DNA from: Acidobacteria bacterium 13_1_20CM_3_53_8
GTDB lineage: Bacteria; Acidobacteriota; Blastocatellia; Pyrinomonadales; Pyrinomonadaceae
DNA: 44,286 nucleotides
Direction: 5' to 3'
Assembly (NCBI GenBank): GCA_001920415.1
Contig: MNJR01000060.1
Coordinates: 584-44,869 of the forward strand
Part shown: in pieces, positions 7,904-35,027 of the stretch
Numbering within the stretch: position 1 is the first letter of the stretch
How the letters are laid out: the number at the start of each line of letters is the position of its first letter
The notes under the pieces: model-generated
What the model was told of the DNA's origin: nothing
Databases searched by the model: none
The model's input: the letters and a program-made list of their open reading frames with translations, nothing else
Position numbers and translations under genes: made by a program

Positions 7904-8026
7904 GAAAGGCAAAAGTAAAAAGGTAAAAGGCAAAAGTGTGGCGGAAACCACTTTTAATAAAAAGATTGGCTTCTCCTCACTTTTGCCTTTTTACTTTTAC
8001 CTTTTGCCTTTCCTTTGCCTTTCCAA
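7904..8026. repeat. Palindromic heptad repeat, family B, copy 2
   Basis: Arms of AAAAGGC/AAAAGTA units face their complement (about 7978-8024). The core GGAAACCACTTTTAATAAAAAGATTGGCTTCTCC is nearly the reverse complement of the core of copy 3. It starts one base after the M48 stop and contains the stop and final codons (RKGKR) of the opposing DoxX-like gene. Confidence 0.9.
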
Positions 8027-8530
8027 AAAGATAATCGCGCAGGGGATTAGAAGCAGAAGATTGCGCAGAGCAGTTGTTACTCCAAGCTGACTTGCTATGA
8101 TTCCGCCAAAGCAGCCGCACTCAAGCCCTTCGGAATTCCCCAGCCCATAGCGATAGTAGAGCGCGTAGGCCGCGAAACTTATTAGCAACGCAGCAGCCCA
8201 CAATGCTCCTATGCGAACAGTGCGCCGCCAAAGTAGAAGAATGACAGCCGCGCTCTCCGCCACAAACACAGCGATGACGACTGGTAAAGCCCAGCGCTCG
8301 CCCACAAGGTTCGGCATCATCTTCAAAAAGCTGTGCTCGCGGTCGTTAATGAAATAGAGCTTTGCGCCAACGGCGAAGAGAAAGAGCGCGGCCAGCGCGA
8401 AGCGGCTTATATGAAAAAGCCATTTTTGTAGAGACGCGGGGACGCGGAGACGCGGGCGAAGAAGGCAAAAGGAAAAAGGTAAAAGTAAAAAGTGAGGGGA
8501 AGCCAATCTTTTTATTAAATTCGGTTTCAT
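7997..8530 (-). CDS. MauE/DoxX-like integral membrane protein with repeat-derived N-terminus
   Basis: The genuine part starts near WLFHISRFALAALFLFAVGAKL (residue ~37) and carries four hydrophobic segments. The motif ECGCFGG fits the methylamine-utilisation MauE/DoxX group of small four-helix membrane proteins, some of which handle thiol or redox partners. The only in-frame ATG is at 8530. Residues 1 to ~35 (KRLASPHFLLLPFSFCLL, then RPRLRVPASLQ) are simply the translation of repeat B3 and an arm of repeat C2. No in-frame ATG, GTG or TTG is apparent between the repeats and the first true helix, so either this chimeric start is used or the original start was lost. The C-terminus RKGKR is likewise in repeat B2. 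The core domain is convincing. The start and expression are not. Confidence 0.7.
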   Translation of the reverse strand: MKPNLIKRLASPHFLLLPFSFCLLRPRLRVPASLQKWLFHISRFALAALFLFAVGAKLYFINDREHSFLKMMPNLVGERWALPVVIAVFVAESAAVILLLWRRTVRIGALWAAALLISFAAYALYYRYGLGNSEGLECGCFGGIIASQLGVTTALRNLLLLIPCAIIFLERQRKGKR

Positions 8531-8594
8531 CCTTTCTTTTGCCTTTTACCTTTTGCCTTTTTACTTTCTTCTTTCACTGCGTCTCCGCGTCTGC
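8431..8594. repeat. Family C element (copy 2) enclosing a family B element (copy 3)
   Basis: Outer arms are GAGACGCGGGGACGCGG at 8431-8456 and GCGTCTCCGCGTCTGC at 8579-8594. Between them lies a complete family B palindrome at about 8458-8573, with AAAAGGC-type arms and a core that is the reverse complement of B2. This is direct evidence of one repeat type sitting inside another. It lies between sucC and the DoxX-like gene and supplies the N-terminal codons of the latter. Confidence 0.9.
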
Positions 8595-18798: not shown

Positions 18799-18869
18799 TC
18801 TTGGAAGCATCAAGCTATAATCTCATTTCTCTTTCGTTCCCGCACTTTTTGGAGGTTCAGCCCTTTACT

Positions 18870-20039
18870 GTGTCCACATCCGAAACGGCTTTTCGCCTCG
18901 CAGCGCGCCTTGATCGCGTAGGCTTTTCTGACATCGTAAATATTCGCAACCGCGTCATGGAGCTTCGCGCGCGTGGGCAGACGGTCTATCAATTCGAGGG
19001 CGGCGAGCCTTTCACGAATACGCCTGAGCACATCAAAGAAGCAATGATGCGCGCTCTTCGAGAAGACAGGACGCGCTACGCGCCTTCTTCCGGGATACAG
19101 GAGCTTCGCGCCGCGATAGCAGAAAAGGTGCGCGAGCAGAACCATATTAATGCCAGCGAACAGGACGTGATTGTGATGTCGGGCGGAATGCAGGGCTTGT
19201 TCGCAGCATTTCAATCCGTAGTCAACGCTGAAGATGAAGTGCTGGTCTTCTCGCCCTACTGGACTCCGGTTAAAGACCTTGTGGCTCATTGTCGCGCCAC
19301 GCCCATTTTAGTTTCTACTGAAACGGCGCGCTCGGAAGGTTTTATGGAAACGCTCTCGCGCTCCACGACCGAAGCAACGCGCGCAATCTATTACAACACG
19401 CCGCAGAATCCAACGGGCACAGTCTTCACTCGCAAAGAGGCCGAGGCGGTGGCGCGGTTCGCGCGAGACAACGACCTGATTGTAATCGCGGACGAAGCTT
19501 ACGAAGATATAGTTTTCGACGGCGAGCATGTTTCCATCGCGTCGCTCGAAGGCATGTTCGAGCGCACCATCACCTGCTACACCTTCTCGAAAAGTTATTC
19601 TATGACGGGCTGGCGTCTTGGCTACGCAATAGCGCCGGAACCCTGGATGACAGGGTTGAAGAAGATGACGCTCTATTCCACAAACGGAGTCTCTACGCCC
19701 GGACAATGGGCAGCGCTCGCTGCGATGGCAACGCCCGCCGATTTTTTCGAAAAACTTCGCGCGGAATATTTGCAAAGGCGAGACCTTATGCTGTCAGGTC
19801 TAAACGAGATTGGTCTGAAGTGCGAAAGCCCCGCAGGCGCTTTTTATGCTTTCCCCGATGCAACATCAATCAGCACGGACAGCCGCACGGCCTCCGAAAT
19901 TCTTCTGGAACGCGCGCAAGTCGCAACAGTCCCCGGCATAGTCTTTGGCATTCACGGCGAAGGCCATCTGCGCTTCTCATTCTCCACCTCAATCGAAACT
20001 ATAGAAGCAGGATTGGACTCACTGCGCAGAAAGCTCTGA
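18870..20039 (+). CDS. PLP-dependent class I/II aminotransferase (AspC-like)
   Basis: A fold-type I aminotransferase of ~389 residues. The PLP-binding Lys is K241 in TFSKSYSMTGWRLGY. Other cofactor residues are N180 (TPQNPTG), D208 and Y211 (IADEAYEDI), and R249 follows the lysine. The substrate carboxylate Arg is expected in LRFSFS. The sequence is of the aspartate/aromatic aminotransferase subgroup, with specificity unproven. Start choice is uncertain: GGAGG at 18851 precedes the GTG at 18870 with a long spacer. A TTG at 18801 would extend the protein by 23 residues and lies just after repeat B5. The gene ends one base before the F/C repeats that begin thiL, so the two may be co-transcribed. 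Confidence 0.92.
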   Translation: MSTSETAFRLAARLDRVGFSDIVNIRNRVMELRARGQTVYQFEGGEPFTNTPEHIKEAMMRALREDRTRYAPSSGIQELRAAIAEKVREQNHINASEQDVIVMSGGMQGLFAAFQSVVNAEDEVLVFSPYWTPVKDLVAHCRATPILVSTETARSEGFMETLSRSTTEATRAIYYNTPQNPTGTVFTRKEAEAVARFARDNDLIVIADEAYEDIVFDGEHVSIASLEGMFERTITCYTFSKSYSMTGWRLGYAIAPEPWMTGLKKMTLYSTNGVSTPGQWAALAAMATPADFFEKLRAEYLQRRDLMLSGLNEIGLKCESPAGAFYAFPDATSISTDSRTASEILLERAQVATVPGIVFGIHGEGHLRFSFSTSIETIEAGLDSLRRKL

Positions 20040-20379
20040 AGGGATGAGGGATGATTGAAGGGATGAGGGCGGAGGGATGAGGGATGAAGAGGAGGAGTTG
20101 AGACGCGAAGACGCGGAATCAACGGGACGCGGAGACGCGGAGACGCGGGGACGCGGCGAAATAGATGAATACACTTTAACCTCTGATAGCGAATCTTTCA
20201 TCCATCACTCTTCATCTTCTAACAACTCTTCGCGCAGCGAATTAGACTTCATACGAAAAATCCGCCGCCGCGCTCTCAAACAAATCGAAGCGCAGTTGCC
20301 CGCGTCCCCGCGTCCCCGCGTCTCCGCGTCTTCGCGTCCCGCAACCCCTTCATCCCTCATCCCTCATCCCTCATCCCTT
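20040..20379. repeat. Nested F and C palindromic arms around the thiL 5' coding end
   Basis: Outer arms: GGGATGA heptads at 20040-20089 and their complement TCATCCC at 20347-20379 (family F). Inner arms: GACGCGGA-type octads at 20100-20159 and their complement at 20299-20342 (family C, copy 3). The enclosed ~140 bases encode the first helix of ThiL. All four arms are read in frame as protein. Confidence 0.88.
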
Positions 20380-21324
20380 CGCACAGGCATTGGCGATGAC
20401 GCAGCCGTCATCAGGCAGACTTCTGGGCGCGACACAGTCATCACGGCTGACCTGCTTATCGAAGAGATTGATTTCAGGCTCGCTTACATGCCCGCACAGC
20501 TTCTAGGGCATAAGGCGCTCGCCGTTTCGCTCTCGGACATTGCGGCGATGGGAGCGCGCCCGCGTTGGGCGCTTGTTTCGCTGGGCGTCCCGCCCGACAT
20601 CTGGCGCTCGTCCTTTGTTGACGATTTTTATGAAGGCTTCTTTGCCTTGGCGGAAGAGTTCGACGTTACTTTAGTAGGCGGCGATGTATCGCGCACGCCT
20701 GAGCGAATAGTCGTTGATTCAATCGTGATGGGAGAGACGGCGAGCGGTGGCGCTGTGCTTCGTTCAGGCGCGCGACCCGGCGATCACATCTTCGTGACGG
20801 GAACGCTGGGCGGCGCTGCTGCTGGACTGAAACTGCTTGAGCAGGGAGCCGAGAAGGTCAAGCGAGCGAGCGTGCGTGAAGTGCGTATGATAGAAAATCT
20901 AATTCGCAGACATACAGAACCTGTGCCACGCACAGGCTGGGGCATATTTCTGGGAGAAGACCGGCTGGCAACTTCCATGATTGATTTGAGTGACGGACTT
21001 TCGTCCGACCTCGCGCACATTTGCGAAGAGAGCGGCGTCGGCGCAAGGCTCGAAGCCGCGCGAATCCCAATCAATCCCAATTCGATGAAATTGTGCGGGC
21101 GACGCGCGCTTGATCCTCTGATGCTGGCGCTTCACGGCGGCGAAGACTTCGAGCTTCTTTTCACTGTGCGACCGCAGGACATTCGTCGCCTTCCCAAAAG
21201 GATTGACGGCGCGTCCGTAGCCTACATAGGCGACATCACTGATAAGGCCGGACAGATTCTCATCTCTGAAGGCTCGCATGTTTGGGATTTGGAGAGAGGC
21301 GGGTTCGAGCATTTTAGTGATTGA
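20077..21324 (+). CDS. thiL: Thiamine-monophosphate kinase with repeat-derived insertions
   Basis: ThiL phosphorylates thiamine monophosphate to the active cofactor TPP. The 415-residue ORF is longer than the usual ~320-340. The genuine parts are an N-terminal helix (SELDFIRKIRRRALKQIEAQL, ~54-74), then GIGDDAAVIR (104-113, metal/phosphate-binding Asp107-108), TADLLIEEIDF, the GHKALAVSLSDIAAMGARP motif, GGDVSRTP, DLSDGLSSDL and GGEDFELLF. Residues ~1-28 (REDAESTGRGDAETRGRG) and ~75-102 (ASPRPRVSASSRPATPSSL, then IPHPSS) are translations of repeat arms. The insertion sits in the loop before the GIGDDAA motif, so the fold could survive. The ATG at 20077 itself lies in repeat F with GGAGG one base away. 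No alternative in-frame ATG follows before the helix. Confidence 0.88.
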   Translation: MRDEEEELRREDAESTGRGDAETRGRGEIDEYTLTSDSESFIHHSSSSNNSSRSELDFIRKIRRRALKQIEAQLPASPRPRVSASSRPATPSSLIPHPSSLRTGIGDDAAVIRQTSGRDTVITADLLIEEIDFRLAYMPAQLLGHKALAVSLSDIAAMGARPRWALVSLGVPPDIWRSSFVDDFYEGFFALAEEFDVTLVGGDVSRTPERIVVDSIVMGETASGGAVLRSGARPGDHIFVTGTLGGAAAGLKLLEQGAEKVKRASVREVRMIENLIRRHTEPVPRTGWGIFLGEDRLATSMIDLSDGLSSDLAHICEESGVGARLEAARIPINPNSMKLCGRRALDPLMLALHGGEDFELLFTVRPQDIRRLPKRIDGASVAYIGDITDKAGQILISEGSHVWDLERGGFEHFSD

Positions 21325-26811: not shown

Positions 26812-26901
26812 AGTCTGGAGTCTAGAGTCTGGAGTCAAAGACAAAAGCAAAGAACTGTTTTTGACCTCGGACTCCAGACTCTAGACTCCAGACTCCAGAC
26901 T
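26812..26901. repeat. Palindromic heptad repeat, family E, copy 1
   Basis: AGTCTGG/AGTCTAG heptads (26812-26836) face their complement (26868-26901) around AAAGACAAAAGCAAAGAACT. It includes the stop and last codons of the amidohydrolase (GSLESGV) and ends 9 bases from the ackA start. Confidence 0.92.
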
Positions 26902-28296: not shown

Positions 28297-29901
28297 TCAT
28301 GTTAACGATATGCCTGATGCAGCACCAAGCTGAACAAGCAAACGCTGGCGAGCATCTATGCTTTCAGTAATAAAAGATGTGAATTGAGCATATAAATTGT
28401 TCAGCCAATCTTCTAGTTTAAAACTTTGAATTTCTCGTGTTGGAATAGCTTCAAATCCTTTAACAGAGAAGGAATCTGAAGCCCACTGTTCTTTCATCTC
28501 TTTTACAAGATTAGTTGATGCAAAATAGCAGAAAGCATAAAGGCCAAAGGTGCATGGGATAATTGATATACTCATACAGCAATAGGGAAAAACTCGCTCT
28601 TCAGGTCTAAATTTTATGATTATCGTGGACTCGGCATATCCTCCTGACTCCTTAATCCCAGCAACAACTCCGTCTTCATACTCTTCTTTAACATATCTTG
28701 TAACCTCTCTACCAATGCCGTAACCATAACTCTCTCTAACCGGAACTTGTCTGATTTTAGTTACAGTTTCGTACTTATACTCAAACTCCAAAATATTTCT
28801 AGCTTTCGAGTTGTTCAGATATTCTGCCGTGCGTCTATTTAATGGGCTTTGCTCAATACTTATTCGCTCTGTCGAGAAAAGATTATTAGACAGACTATGA
28901 TTATCTTTTTCCGTTTTATTCTTTGCCCAACTAAACATTTGTTCAGTCAAGGATGCTGCAAGTTCTAATTTCTTTTCCTGACTAGGCACTACAAATATAA
29001 ACGTATCACTTCTAGTTACTAATTTTGCCTTCAAACTGCTTAACAGTGCTCCTGAATCATCAGCAGCAGGCTCTAGTTGAGTGGGTTCTGTCTTTTCGAT
29101 TTTTAATAGAGTTTCAGGAAGGTGCTCTTCTTTCCGTTCAATTCCGGCTAATACCAGGCTGCCAGCTTGTTCACCTGAAAAGACTGGAGTTTGCTCCAAT
29201 CCTAATTTTTTAGATAAGTCAATAGTGTTATCCATCACATAAACTTTGAGATTATCCAAAGTGATACGTGAACCATCAATAGAGGCGTCACCGGACAATC
29301 CCCTGACAATAAAATAAGAGAAAATCCCTTGTTTGATGTCATTGTTTTCATGAGCAAATTGATCTTCTCTGCATGAAGCTAAGGTCGCCCATCCTTCCGC
29401 AGTAATGGCGAGATGTTCATCCACATTAGGGTTAGACATGCCCCTCAATCCCAATCGCCCTGAATGACACGCATCAAAAAATCTCAGCTTAAATTTCGCC
29501 TTAGATTGTTGGAAATAATTATTCACCTTCGACATAGCTATGGATGAATCAGCAAGCACATTCTTTCGGTATTCCTTAGTAAGGAGATAGCTATCACGCT
29601 CATCCCTTGTTCCATGCCCAGCGAAGAAAAGTAATATAGAATCTTCTTCATTTGCCTTCTCACAGATTTCATTGACGGCTGATAATATATCGCTGTAAGT
29701 GGGTACATGGGCCGCAGGGTGATTGCCATCAGAGAAAAGAAAAATGTTGCTTGAATTGTATTGAGCATAATGAAGTAAAGCTTCATAGAAAGCTTCGGCA
29801 TCATTAGAACAAAAATTCAGGCTCGACATAGGAGAGCCACTATAGTTATTAATACCAGCAACAACTGCATATCTAATTGGGAGTCGCTCATTATTGACCA
29901 T
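28297..29901 (-). CDS. Caspase-like (peptidase C14) protein with unknown C-terminal domain
   Basis: A 534-residue protein. Residues ~10-255 are a caspase/metacaspase-like p20-p10 domain: YAVVAGINNYSG, LNFCSNDAEAFYEALL, catalytic H96 in LLFFAGHGTRD, catalytic C145 in FFDACHSG, and GIFSYFIVRGLSGDA. Residues ~255-534 are unassigned. They include a basic/charged beta-rich stretch (VRESYGYGIGREVTRYVKEEY), a hydrophobic segment near PYCCMSISIIPCTFGLYAFC that might cross a membrane, and a helical tail. No signal peptide is seen. The start is the ATG at 29901, with GGAG 7 bases upstream. Base composition is clearly lower in GC than both neighbours, which suggests horizontal acquisition. Bacterial caspase-like proteases often occur in signalling or anti-phage systems. 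No partner gene is adjacent. Confidence 0.87.
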   Translation of the reverse strand: MVNNERLPIRYAVVAGINNYSGSPMSSLNFCSNDAEAFYEALLHYAQYNSSNIFLFSDGNHPAAHVPTYSDILSAVNEICEKANEEDSILLFFAGHGTRDERDSYLLTKEYRKNVLADSSIAMSKVNNYFQQSKAKFKLRFFDACHSGRLGLRGMSNPNVDEHLAITAEGWATLASCREDQFAHENNDIKQGIFSYFIVRGLSGDASIDGSRITLDNLKVYVMDNTIDLSKKLGLEQTPVFSGEQAGSLVLAGIERKEEHLPETLLKIEKTEPTQLEPAADDSGALLSSLKAKLVTRSDTFIFVVPSQEKKLELAASLTEQMFSWAKNKTEKDNHSLSNNLFSTERISIEQSPLNRRTAEYLNNSKARNILEFEYKYETVTKIRQVPVRESYGYGIGREVTRYVKEEYEDGVVAGIKESGGYAESTIIIKFRPEERVFPYCCMSISIIPCTFGLYAFCYFASTNLVKEMKEQWASDSFSVKGFEAIPTREIQSFKLEDWLNNLYAQFTSFITESIDARQRLLVQLGAASGISLT

Positions 29902-29946
29902 TGCTTTTCTCCGTATCATTCATTACTTGACTTTGATTAGCACAAA

Positions 29947-31365
29947 TTATAACTCAAGAAGAGAATCACTCTGTGTTTCTCTTTTAATCTTCATATTACG
30001 ATGTTGCAATAAAAACCAGAGCAGCCCGGAAAGAGCAATGACCGCGCCGCCCGCGCCCGCAACAGGTCTTATGCCGAACCTGTCGGCAGCAGCGCCGGAA
30101 ACCAGCATTGAGCTTACCATCGCAAGCGTCGTCAGTGTTTCGTATGAAGCGAAGACGCGCCCTGCGAAGCGGTCTTCTGTGCGGCTCATCACGATTGTCT
30201 GTTGAGCAGTCCACCAGATTGCGAAGTTAATCTCGCGCGCTATGAGCACAACGGCAGCGCCCCAGAGGTTTGGCATAAAGCTGAAGAGCAGCAAGCCAAT
30301 CCCATCAAATATCATAGAGCGTCCCATGCGCGAGCCTAACGTCTCACTCGAACCCGCATTGAACCTGCGCGCTATCGGCGCACCCAACACCCCGCCCAAT
30401 CCCATCGCAACGAAGAGCACAGAGATGCCGAAGTCCGTAGGGCGCGCGACCATTCCTTGCGCAGCAGCAACGCCCAGCCTAGCGCCGAAGATACTGTAGA
30501 GCGCTCGCGCAACACCGTTGCCCAATCCCCAGCCGCAAGCCACTACGAAGACAGCAGAGAGAATATGCACGCGACGAACGTAACTCAACCCCTCTCTGAA
30601 ATCCGCAATGATTCGCTGAAGCGACGCGGAGACGCTTTGAAGAGACGCGGCGACGCGGGGACGCGGAGACGCGGCGAGAGAAATAGAATGCGCCGTTGCC
30701 ATTGATTCCTTTTCCCCGCGTCTCCGCGTCCCCGCGTCGCCGCGTCTTGTTTGTTCCAGCGTCTCCGCGTCTCGTTGTAGCCGTGCGCGTATGCGACGAA
30801 TCATCTCAGCCGACGCGAGGAATGTTAGCGCGTTGATGACGAAGACGGTGTTGCGCCCCATGAAGGTGGCGACCATGCCGCCGAGCGCAGAGCCTACGGC
30901 AATGGTAGCGGCTGTCGTAGAAGCCGAGAGCGAATTGGCGCTCAATAACTCTTCTGTGCCGCGTGTCAGGTTCGGAATCGAAGCGCGCTTCGCTGCGTTG
31001 AAGAATGAAGAGACTGAGAAGAGCAGGGAGCCTACGACGTAGATGATTGAAAGCGATAAAAATCTGTTCGCCAGTATAAAACCGAGCGCTAGAAACGCGC
31101 GGGCGAAGTCGGACGCTATCATTATTCGTCGGCGGTCGAAGCGATCCGCCACGACACCAGCCATTGGCCCAAACAGAAATAGCGGCAGGTGACGCGCGAT
31201 TGCGTATATAGCAATAGCAAGCCCTTCGTGACCAGCGCCAGCCACTTGAATCGTGAGCGCGAGCACTGCGATGTTGTTGAGCCAGTCGCCAATTTCGGAG
31301 ATGACCTGCCCCGTCCACAGGCGGCGAAAATCCGCATTCGCCTTTAATAGCTCGCGGAAGGTCAA
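29947..31365 (-). CDS. MFS transporter (MFS_3/EntS-like exporter) with repeat insertion in the central loop
   Basis: A 472-residue 12-helix major facilitator protein. Signature pieces: FRRLWTGQVISEIGDWLNNIAVLAL, the helix 2-3 motif GVVADRFDRRRIMI, and in the second half VLGAPIARRF and GRVFASYETLTTLAMVSS. Between helices 6 and 7, residues ~197-250 are in-frame translation of a family C palindrome: RDAETLEQTRRGDAGTRRRG, later ASPRPRVAASLQ. That is in the cytoplasmic loop, where added residues are often tolerated. The TTG start at 31365 overlaps the stop of the lytic transglycosylase by 4 bases (TTGA) and has GGAGG 8 bases upstream, so the two are coupled. The substrate is unknown. Confidence 0.9.
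   Translation of the reverse strand: MTFRELLKANADFRRLWTGQVISEIGDWLNNIAVLALTIQVAGAGHEGLAIAIYAIARHLPLFLFGPMAGVVADRFDRRRIMIASDFARAFLALGFILANRFLSLSIIYVVGSLLFSVSSFFNAAKRASIPNLTRGTEELLSANSLSASTTAATIAVGSALGGMVATFMGRNTVFVINALTFLASAEMIRRIRARLQRDAETLEQTRRGDAGTRRRGEKESMATAHSISLAASPRPRVAASLQSVSASLQRIIADFREGLSYVRRVHILSAVFVVACGWGLGNGVARALYSIFGARLGVAAAQGMVARPTDFGISVLFVAMGLGGVLGAPIARRFNAGSSETLGSRMGRSMIFDGIGLLLFSFMPNLWGAAVVLIAREINFAIWWTAQQTIVMSRTEDRFAGRVFASYETLTTLAMVSSMLVSGAAADRFGIRPVAGAGGAVIALSGLLWFLLQHRNMKIKRETQSDSLLEL
30615..30774. repeat. Family C element (copy 4) inside the MFS coding sequence
   Basis: GACGCGGA-type arms (30615-30679) face CCGCGTCT-type arms (30711-30774) around AGAAATAGAATGCGCCGTTG. 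Each arm carries a short interruption (CTTTGAAGA on the left, TTGTTTGTTCCA on the right), as if built from two arrays. It lies wholly within the open MFS frame and introduces no stop codon. Confidence 0.9.
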
Positions 31366-33360: not shown

Positions 33361-33834
33361 TCACTGTTTTTCCGTTGCTTCTGAAACCAGGAACTCCGGC
33401 GTAACGATCATGGGGACGAAGAAGCCCGCCGCCGTGTTGAAGAGTCGTATGCGTGCCTGACGGCGCACGTTCGCAAGATGACCGAAGTTCCATGTTACTA
33501 AGTAATCAATTTTGTGAAACGAAGCAAGAGCTACGTGCAATGCGTCGGCAATGTACTTGCGATGAAAGATGCCGCGCGCAATGTAGCCTTCGGCCAAGAT
33601 GGCTGCCTCGTCCGTTAGCTCTACCTGTTCGAGCTTGCGCACGAGTTTCAGGTAGCCCGTGCGATGCGGCTCCGTCACACGCTCAAGCTCGCGCTCGACC
33701 AATGGCGAAACCACAGCGCGATACTCAGGCAGTTCGTGCTCCCACCAACGAATCGTCAAATCGCGCCGAAACGGCTCGCCGTTATCAAGATAAGCGCCGA
33801 CGACAGAAGTTTCCAGATAAAGACTCTGCTTCAT
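33361..33834 (-). CDS. PIN-domain protein (VapC-like ribonuclease toxin candidate)
   Basis: A 157-residue PIN domain. The opening strand is LYLETSVVGAYLD (E8 where many PIN toxins have Asp). A second acidic site is in SPLVERELERV (E47-E49), and DALHVALASFHKIDYLVTWN holds D97 and N116 typical of the group. These would form a divalent-metal ribonuclease site. The start ATG overlaps the stop of the upstream retropepsin frame as ATGA, so its translation is coupled to a protease-like gene rather than to an antitoxin. A small possible partner is encoded downstream beyond repeat A4. Role as a toxin is inferred from the domain only. Confidence 0.85.
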   Translation of the reverse strand: MKQSLYLETSVVGAYLDNGEPFRRDLTIRWWEHELPEYRAVVSPLVERELERVTEPHRTGYLKLVRKLEQVELTDEAAILAEGYIARGIFHRKYIADALHVALASFHKIDYLVTWNFGHLANVRRQARIRLFNTAAGFFVPMIVTPEFLVSEATEKQ

Positions 33835-35027
33835 GGCTCAGAAGGAACGGTGCCCGTGCCGTTAGATGTATCAGCAGGCGGCGCGTTCGCGCCCAACGGT
33901 TCTAGCCGCATCAAAGCGCGCTGGAAGTCTATGGTGACTCGATAGAAGCGCAGGAAATTCCCGCCGACTATTCCGCTCTGATCAAACCCCGCCGTCTCGT
34001 TTACAGGATCAAGATCAAGCACGGCTGCCGGAAGATGCTCGCGCACCAGAGTTCCCAAGGTGAAGCGCGGCAGCATCAACAGCTTCACATCGTCTTCAAT
34101 TCCCGCCGCGCCGTAAACGCGCATCCTTGTGCCGTGCGCGAAGCGTTCTAGATCGGAGCGTGCGACGAGCGCTTTTGAAACTACAGAGACTGTAGCGCCC
34201 GTGTCAATTATGAAGTTCAGAGGCTTTGTCAATCCTTCTATCTGAACATCGCTGCTCAAGAACCCGCTCGCCGTAGTGCGAAGTGGAATCTCAATGACGT
34301 TAGGGCCTGGAGCAGCGGGCTGCTGGTTGGACGAGCGCTGCCGCGCGAGCGAGAAAGTGCGTGCGCCGTAAACGCGCATCCTTGTGCCGTGCGCGAAGCG
34401 TTCTAGATCGGAGCGTGCGACGAGCGCTTTTGAAACTACAGAGACTGTAGCGCCCGTGTCAATTATGAAGTTCAGAGGCTTTGTCAATCCTTCTATCTGA
34501 ACATCGCTGCTCAAGAACCCGCTCGCCGTAGTGCGAAGTGGAATCTCAATGACGTTAGGGCCTGGAGCAGCGGGCTGCTGGTTGGACGAGCGCTGCCGCG
34601 CGAGCGAGAAAGTGCGTGCGCCGTAATCAACCGTCGCTACGAATTTCGTCAACGCTGCGATGCCTATGTAACCGTCTGTCGGATTGCCGTCATCAAAGAA
34701 GTGGCGAATGTAAACGGGAACGTTGTCCACCTCTACATCGCCTATGTCCAACTGTGAAAGAAAGCCGTAAACTATCTCGAACTTTCCGCCGCCTCCGACT
34801 GCGCGCGCAAGCCCGCCACGTGCTACGGCGCGAATGTTCATGCGCCTGGCCGTCTCCTCTGAGACAACGGACATACCCGAACCCGTGTCAATCACGAAGC
34901 GCAAAGGCCTGCGGTCGCCATTGATTCTGACCTGAATGATGGGGCGGTTGTTAATTATCTCGAAAGGAATAGATGTGTGGGACGCGCCCGTGGGGCGCGC
35001 GGCGATCTTCGTCCGTGCGCGGCGCAA
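33831..35027 (-). CDS. Retropepsin-like aspartic protease domain, C-terminal part of a probably frameshifted TPR-protease gene
   Basis: A 398-residue frame opening at a TTG with no ribosome site, inside the end of the TPR frame. The protease signal starts at IPFEIINNRPIIQVRINGDR, with FVIDTGSGMSVVSEE as the first DTG motif, then VYGFLSQLDIGDVEVDNVPV and GYIGIAALTKF. The second half-domain (NFIIDTGATVSVVSKALVAR) is present twice because of an exact 255-bp duplication, giving three DTG motifs in total. An undamaged relative would have two DTG motifs and be fused to the TPR part. Its stop overlaps the PIN start (ATGA). Protein made from this frame alone would lack a signal peptide. Confidence 0.7.
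   Translation of the reverse strand: MRRARTKIAARPTGASHTSIPFEIINNRPIIQVRINGDRRPLRFVIDTGSGMSVVSEETARRMNIRAVARGGLARAVGGGGKFEIVYGFLSQLDIGDVEVDNVPVYIRHFFDDGNPTDGYIGIAALTKFVATVDYGARTFSLARQRSSNQQPAAPGPNVIEIPLRTTASGFLSSDVQIEGLTKPLNFIIDTGATVSVVSKALVARSDLERFAHGTRMRVYGARTFSLARQRSSNQQPAAPGPNVIEIPLRTTASGFLSSDVQIEGLTKPLNFIIDTGATVSVVSKALVARSDLERFAHGTRMRVYGAAGIEDDVKLLMLPRFTLGTLVREHLPAAVLDLDPVNETAGFDQSGIVGGNFLRFYRVTIDFQRALMRLEPLGANAPPADTSNGTGTVPSEP
34108..34617. repeat. Exact 255-bp tandem duplication in the protease gene
   Basis: 34108-34362 and 34363-34617 appear identical base for base. The 9-base sequence GCGCCGTAA begins each copy and recurs at 34618, so the duplication is bounded by a 9-bp direct repeat. 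The length is 85 codons, so the frame is kept. It duplicates the segment YGARTFSLARQRSSNQQPA to RMRV, including one DTG motif. Confidence 0.93.

Follow-up and report, generated by a model that had tools for sequence, protein, structure and literature searches.

We favour, with moderate confidence, the reading that two half-copies of a heptamer-repeat palindrome, dispersed in the genome, were captured at the start of thiL, and that these halves have been renewed from the genome's own repeat pool and probably also by copying from arm to arm. The gene lies in the window (the whole stretch of DNA that was analysed, 44,286 nucleotides), with its start enclosed by two pairs of repeat arms. The features of the locus are:

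18801–20039, + strand: aminotransferase class I/II gene upstream of thiL (PF00155, 4.6e-64)
20040–20087, + strand: left outer arm, family F; GGGATGA heptamers with one GGGCGGA unit among them
20065–20069, + strand: putative Shine-Dalgarno GAGGG within the left outer arm, 7 nt 5' of the ATG, as read from the sequence
20077–21324, + strand: thiL, 415 amino acids, with its start ATG inside the left outer arm
20102–20158, + strand: left inner arm, family C; GACGCGGA octamers, outermost unit GACGCGAA
20159–20232, + strand: spacer from the left inner arm to the native helix, not conserved in relatives
20233–20298, + strand: native ThiL N-terminal helix, SRSELDFIRKIRRRALKQIEAQL, within the loop of both arm pairs
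20299–20340, + strand: right inner arm, the inverse of family C; coding, residues about 75–89
20347–20378, + strand: right outer arm, four TCATCCC units; coding, residues 91–101, SSLIPHPSSL
20386–20406, + strand: GIGDDAA motif of ThiL, residue 104; the right arms end just 5' of it

The product of the gene scores 300.4 bits against the curated model TIGR01379 (cut-off 184.15), contains the GIGDD motif and is related to ThiL proteins of solved structure; the gene occurs once in the 6.1-Mb genome, a draft of 155 contigs that is 96% complete. Judged by these sequence measures, the open reading frame is an intact, single-copy ThiL, the thiamine-monophosphate kinase of vitamin B1 metabolism. The stop codon of the aminotransferase gene (20037–20039) abuts the left outer arm, which lies mostly 5' of the thiL start codon, so that its last 11 nt only are coding. 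In the ThiL frame, the left arms correspond to residues 1–4 (outer) and 9–28 (inner), the inner one being interrupted by 8 nt at 20118–20125. The arms of the inner pair, 145 nt apart, match over 37 nt and are 95% complementary, and the C pattern finds 12 matches in the window at up to three mismatches, versus none in 100 shuffles. Between the inner arms, after the spacer, the first ThiL helix reads SRSELDFIRKIRRRAL.

The sequence-only reading of this DNA had described two nested families (F outer, C inner) around the 5' part of thiL, with arms encoding residues of about 1–28 and 75–102 before GIGDDAA, in a gene that is open and otherwise complete and with genuine coding sequence between the arms. 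The array units and coordinates bear out the nesting, the translation gives the same residue ranges, the frame is intact at 300 bits against TIGR01379, and armless relatives have the same helix in the place where an element would have its loop. The placing of the arms inside thiL holds in part: they are read in frame, but what the left outer arm contributes is mostly a translation start rather than a coding insert.

Repeats of this kind are abundant in the genome, as judged from a 415-kb sample together with pattern searches. The sample contains 134 arrays of 6–10-nt units, mostly as inverted pairs with gaps of 2–68 nt, in families that include AGTTTTC, ATTTTGG, AAAAGGC, AAATGGT, AGTCTGG, GACGCGGA, AAAAGGGG and GGGATGA. 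Genome-wide, the loop between inverted 7–8-mer arrays is usually short or specific to the element. Members of one family often share a conserved loop, and these families are dispersed palindromic elements. An exact 17-nt F pattern has 55 matches in the genome, while the same pattern read backwards has none; the exact C pattern has 94 matches. The standard F element has a conserved loop, ATAGGAATTGAGCTAATTGCATGTTGACGCAATCACTCCTTCTTAT or a variant of it, about 45 nt long; this loop is missing between the thiL arms, where native coding sequence takes its place. Nesting of one array family in another is common, and in an F/C nest on contig C79 the units follow one another as they do in the left thiL arm.

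Other elements also meet coding sequence. A C-family octamer palindrome (30644–30746) lies in frame near the middle of the protein in an MFS transporter ORF (29947–31365, − strand); an AGTCTGG palindrome (26812–26901) covers the beginning of one ORF together with the end of the following one, both frames entering it; and a nested element with octamer arms outside and AAAAGGC-type heptamers inside (8425–8591) overlaps the start of a MauE-like ORF (7997–8530, − strand). Outside the window, an ORF of 842 amino acids contains in-frame nested arms, AGTCTGG outer and ATTTTCG inner (L089:14467–14606). The window further holds a perfect 255-bp tandem duplication (34108–34617) in an aspartyl-protease-domain ORF (33831–35027, − strand) and a gene for a caspase-domain (Peptidase_C14) protein (28297–29919).

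Of 119 genomes in the same family, 104 yielded a ThiL, and the region before GIGDD was read in 39 loci, in which a homologue of the helix (EFDFIxxIR) is present whether arms are or not. Twelve species from 9 genera have arms at both places, as does one decayed case (G006); in the both-arm species, the left arm comes right after the upstream stop codon and the right arm right before GIGDD. Six species have a right arm only, from several unrelated families (AGTGCTG, GTCAGCA and GCAATCG at the same place), two have a left arm only, and the remainder have neither. On a tree of the ThiL core, both-arm species are scattered over most lineages, with AGGATGA arms in two separate parts and GTGATGA arms likewise in two. 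The inner octamer arms were seen in this genome only, among the species compared, and are a recent second layer. In relatives of genus g3 (L074, L070, L071, L072 and L073), another in-frame insert interrupts the middle of ThiL, with LKLIExGAR on one side and the LLLRQL helix on the other; in G137 it consists of GGCAGTC/GGCAGGA heptamers.

Comparison with armless relatives had been proposed as a check by the sequence-only reading. It returns the same native helix. The armed relatives show the outer pair to be no peculiarity of this gene copy, the same two places being armed across the 12 species and 9 genera. Recurrence of the same residues in relatives, named beforehand as an observation that would count against the proposal, is found in part: SSLIPHPSSL or near variants recur because the same DNA repeat is present there, whereas other relatives encode unrelated linkers. 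A second intact thiL, the other such observation, is absent from the 6.1-Mb genome.

Every left-armed species has its first in-frame ATG within the array (for example atgagggatgagggATGagggat), with GAGGG one unit upstream, and in most of them the stretch from the array to the conserved helix offers no further start codon; in armless relatives, the start is mostly 6–9 nt before helix 1. An ATG inside the array, with armless starts at the helix, indicates that the left array has become the translation start of thiL, providing a putative ribosome-binding site and the start codon. Elsewhere in the genome, a ModA-like solute-binding protein has its start codon in a GGGATGA array that follows the stop codon of the preceding frame without a gap (L115:401–428). 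The right array adds length to the linker before GIGDD, which measures 25–44 amino acids with both arms and 14–22 without arms. The orientation of each arm is forced by the genetic code, because GGGATGA arrays, as well as those of GTGATGA and GGATGAA, contain a stop in all three frames and their inverses (TCATCCC for the first) contain none.

The outer-arm unit of thiL is GGGATGA, AGGATGA or GTGATGA, depending on the species, and left and right arms belong to the same family in all 12 both-arm species. Their summed left-right complementarity is 293.5, versus a mean of 222.6 (s.d. 18.0, maximum 288) over 20,000 random re-pairings among species, a permutation that treats the species as independent of one another. 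The family of the arms is always found elsewhere in the same genome and is usually the commonest of three: perfect triplets of GGGATGA/GTGATGA/GGATGAA, counted over whole genomes, number 43/12/0 in G000, 130/3/0 in G036, 30/0/9 in G014, 0/45/3 in G010 and 0/0/13 in G028. At least five genomes (G012, G024, G025, G030 and G134) have mixed pools, yet both thiL arms agree. Independent draws from the pools would give a family match in 12 of 12 with a probability of about 1%, for three families and species taken as independent.

When left arms were compared with inverted right arms in the 12 species, 305 positions agreed and 25 deviated from the unit consensus. Every deviation in the outer arms is one-sided (25 of 25, mirrored 0 of 25), and base-by-base pairing is therefore not conserved. 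The compensatory changes that selection for a hairpin would leave at paired positions number zero among these 25 deviations in 12 species, and 17 of 20 arm differences in a hand-trimmed set are not G-U compatible. As aligned, the arms covary family by family and not pair by pair, which speaks against an RNA helix under selection at each base pair. The predicted RNA fold at thiL in the window is nonetheless very stable (−183.4 kcal/mol, z-score −10.7), with none of 100 shuffles as stable, as would be expected of a regulatory RNA hairpin; the predicted stem includes the Shine-Dalgarno and AUG of thiL. From this model, regulation of thiL by an mRNA hairpin is possible.

The inner arms share a marker. 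GACGCGAAGACGCGG has exactly two occurrences in the 6.1-Mb genome, one per inner thiL arm, each on the arm's outer edge and the two inverted, and GACGCGAA was not found among 169 octamer units elsewhere. Being unique to the two inner arms, GACGCGAAGACGCGG supports, as a single marker, the view that one inner arm was copied into the other over the coding loop. Unit order is mirrored in elements of the AGTTTT family (NAGTTTT, p 0.002) and was not found mirrored in C elements elsewhere (p 0.80) or in GATTTTN elements (p 0.64); mirroring as a general rule for the latter two was rejected on these values. Polymerase template switching is a known way in which the arms of inverted repeats become alike within coding DNA (PMC8604942). 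For the thiL arms, the sequences make arm-to-arm copying likely, albeit not proven.

Under the capture reading, the left half-element would have been taken as ribosome-binding site and start codon, and the inverse half would be read as a tolerated linker of about 10 residues from helix 1 to GIGDD. The arms would then be renewed from the genome's own heptamer pool, via ectopic conversion or template switching, and each may serve as template for the other by way of the hairpin that the pair can form; renewal from the pool together with mutual copying would account for the joint change of family in the two arms. In this genome, the same process would have placed the second, inner octamer pair, one arm on each side. 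With the predicted mRNA hairpin in place, free initiation at thiL would probably be lowered and thiL tied to translation of the upstream gene. It counts against capture and copying that C and GATTTTN elements elsewhere are unmirrored, although NAGTTTT elements are mirrored, that the 25 deviations in the outer thiL arms include no mirrored one, and that the matched arms could be two independent draws from a one-sided pool.

The last objection leads to independent colonisation, in which permissive sites acquired the two arms separately from the dominant heptamer family and the stop-codon constraint alone set their orientation. The right-only arms of unrelated families at the same place, the orientation logic with the pool correlation, and the repeat-derived insert at another ThiL site in genus g3 are all in keeping with it. 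We nevertheless find it improbable, given 12 of 12 matches despite mixed pools in at least five genomes, the unit unique to both inner arms, and an SRSEFDFI extension common to many armed species, which suggests an ancestral array start. Equally doubtful is a selected RNA switch, with the arms kept because they fold the mRNA into a hairpin, hiding the ribosome-binding site of thiL and so controlling its translation. The fold exceeding all shuffles with Shine-Dalgarno and AUG in its stem, the family-level covariation, the same arm position in 9 genera, and the abutting upstream stop codon, which would permit translational coupling, speak for such a switch; the uncompensated deviations (25 of 25), the 17 of 20 differences incompatible with G-U pairing and the existence of right-only and left-only species speak against it. 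Moreover, family choice tracks the genome-wide pool, and the same covariation is expected without selection.

Somewhat less probable again is a domesticated translational device: an inverted pair, its loop made of host coding sequence, held at the thiL start across many genera, with the left arm as ribosome-binding site, pairing that limits ThiL synthesis, and arms rewritten together. If true, a function would have been kept while the arm sequence was replaced by the genome's active heptamer family. Insertion of one ordinary palindromic element as a whole (RPE-like or MITE-like) would suit the dispersed palindromes with conserved loops of the same families and the nested F/C element of similar unit order on C79, but it is highly unlikely, and was rejected, since the thiL loop is native ThiL sequence, also found in armless relatives, and the standard F loop is absent. 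That the layout is an assembly artefact or the gene a decayed one is scarcely credible: the genome is a draft in 155 contigs and the armed relative G001 has a broken thiL frame, but the same layout recurs in many independent assemblies, and the gene here is an open, single-copy frame with a 300-bit ThiL match.

We found no direct description of heptamer palindromes in Acidobacteria in the literature. A link to REP/REPIN elements with RAYT transposases was not supported: no F, C or thiL-type arrays surround the four Y1_Tnp genes, and another heptamer pair lies near a Y1_Tnp gene at one locus only, about 1 kb away. Under the capture reading, a core metabolic gene owes its start codon and ribosome-binding site to the repeat population, which goes beyond mere tolerance nearby. 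The relatives form a natural series (armless, left-only, right-only, both, nested arms, and three unit families), and with it one can trace and test how inverted arms evolve in concert when a coding loop lies between them.

Rickettsia palindromic elements are dispersed units of about 150 bp that are inserted whole and in frame in metabolic genes (PMC10969869). The thiL repeats resemble them as dispersed palindromic sequence in frame inside a metabolic gene, and their families are likewise dispersed; no single palindromic unit inserted whole is found at thiL, which instead has two separate halves around native coding sequence, one of them a translation start. The TAACTGA heptamers of Beggiatoaceae and cyanobacteria are one family, almost all direct repeats (MacGregor 2015, PMC4679880). 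They too form arrays, placed just 5' of start codons, in which one orientation stops all frames and the other can code, whereas here there are many families, inverted pairs and a start codon inside the array; direct-repeat arrays of the unit TAACTGA are not what thiL carries, its units being others and paired in inversion. The heptameric simple repeats of Nostoc and Xanthomonas are also genome-wide heptamer arrays, and their abstract does not mention paired inverted arms around a coding segment (PMC4692102). In the coding palindromes of Nematomorpha mitochondria, inverted-repeat arms are translated in a functional gene as at thiL, but there they encode conserved native regions, whereas the thiL arms are added repeat DNA encoding non-conserved residues (PMC6649704). 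Template switching in yeast coding genes likewise homogenises two arms across a spacer inside genes, with short arms and few substitutions, while at thiL whole arrays would be involved, over more than 130 nt (PMC8604942).
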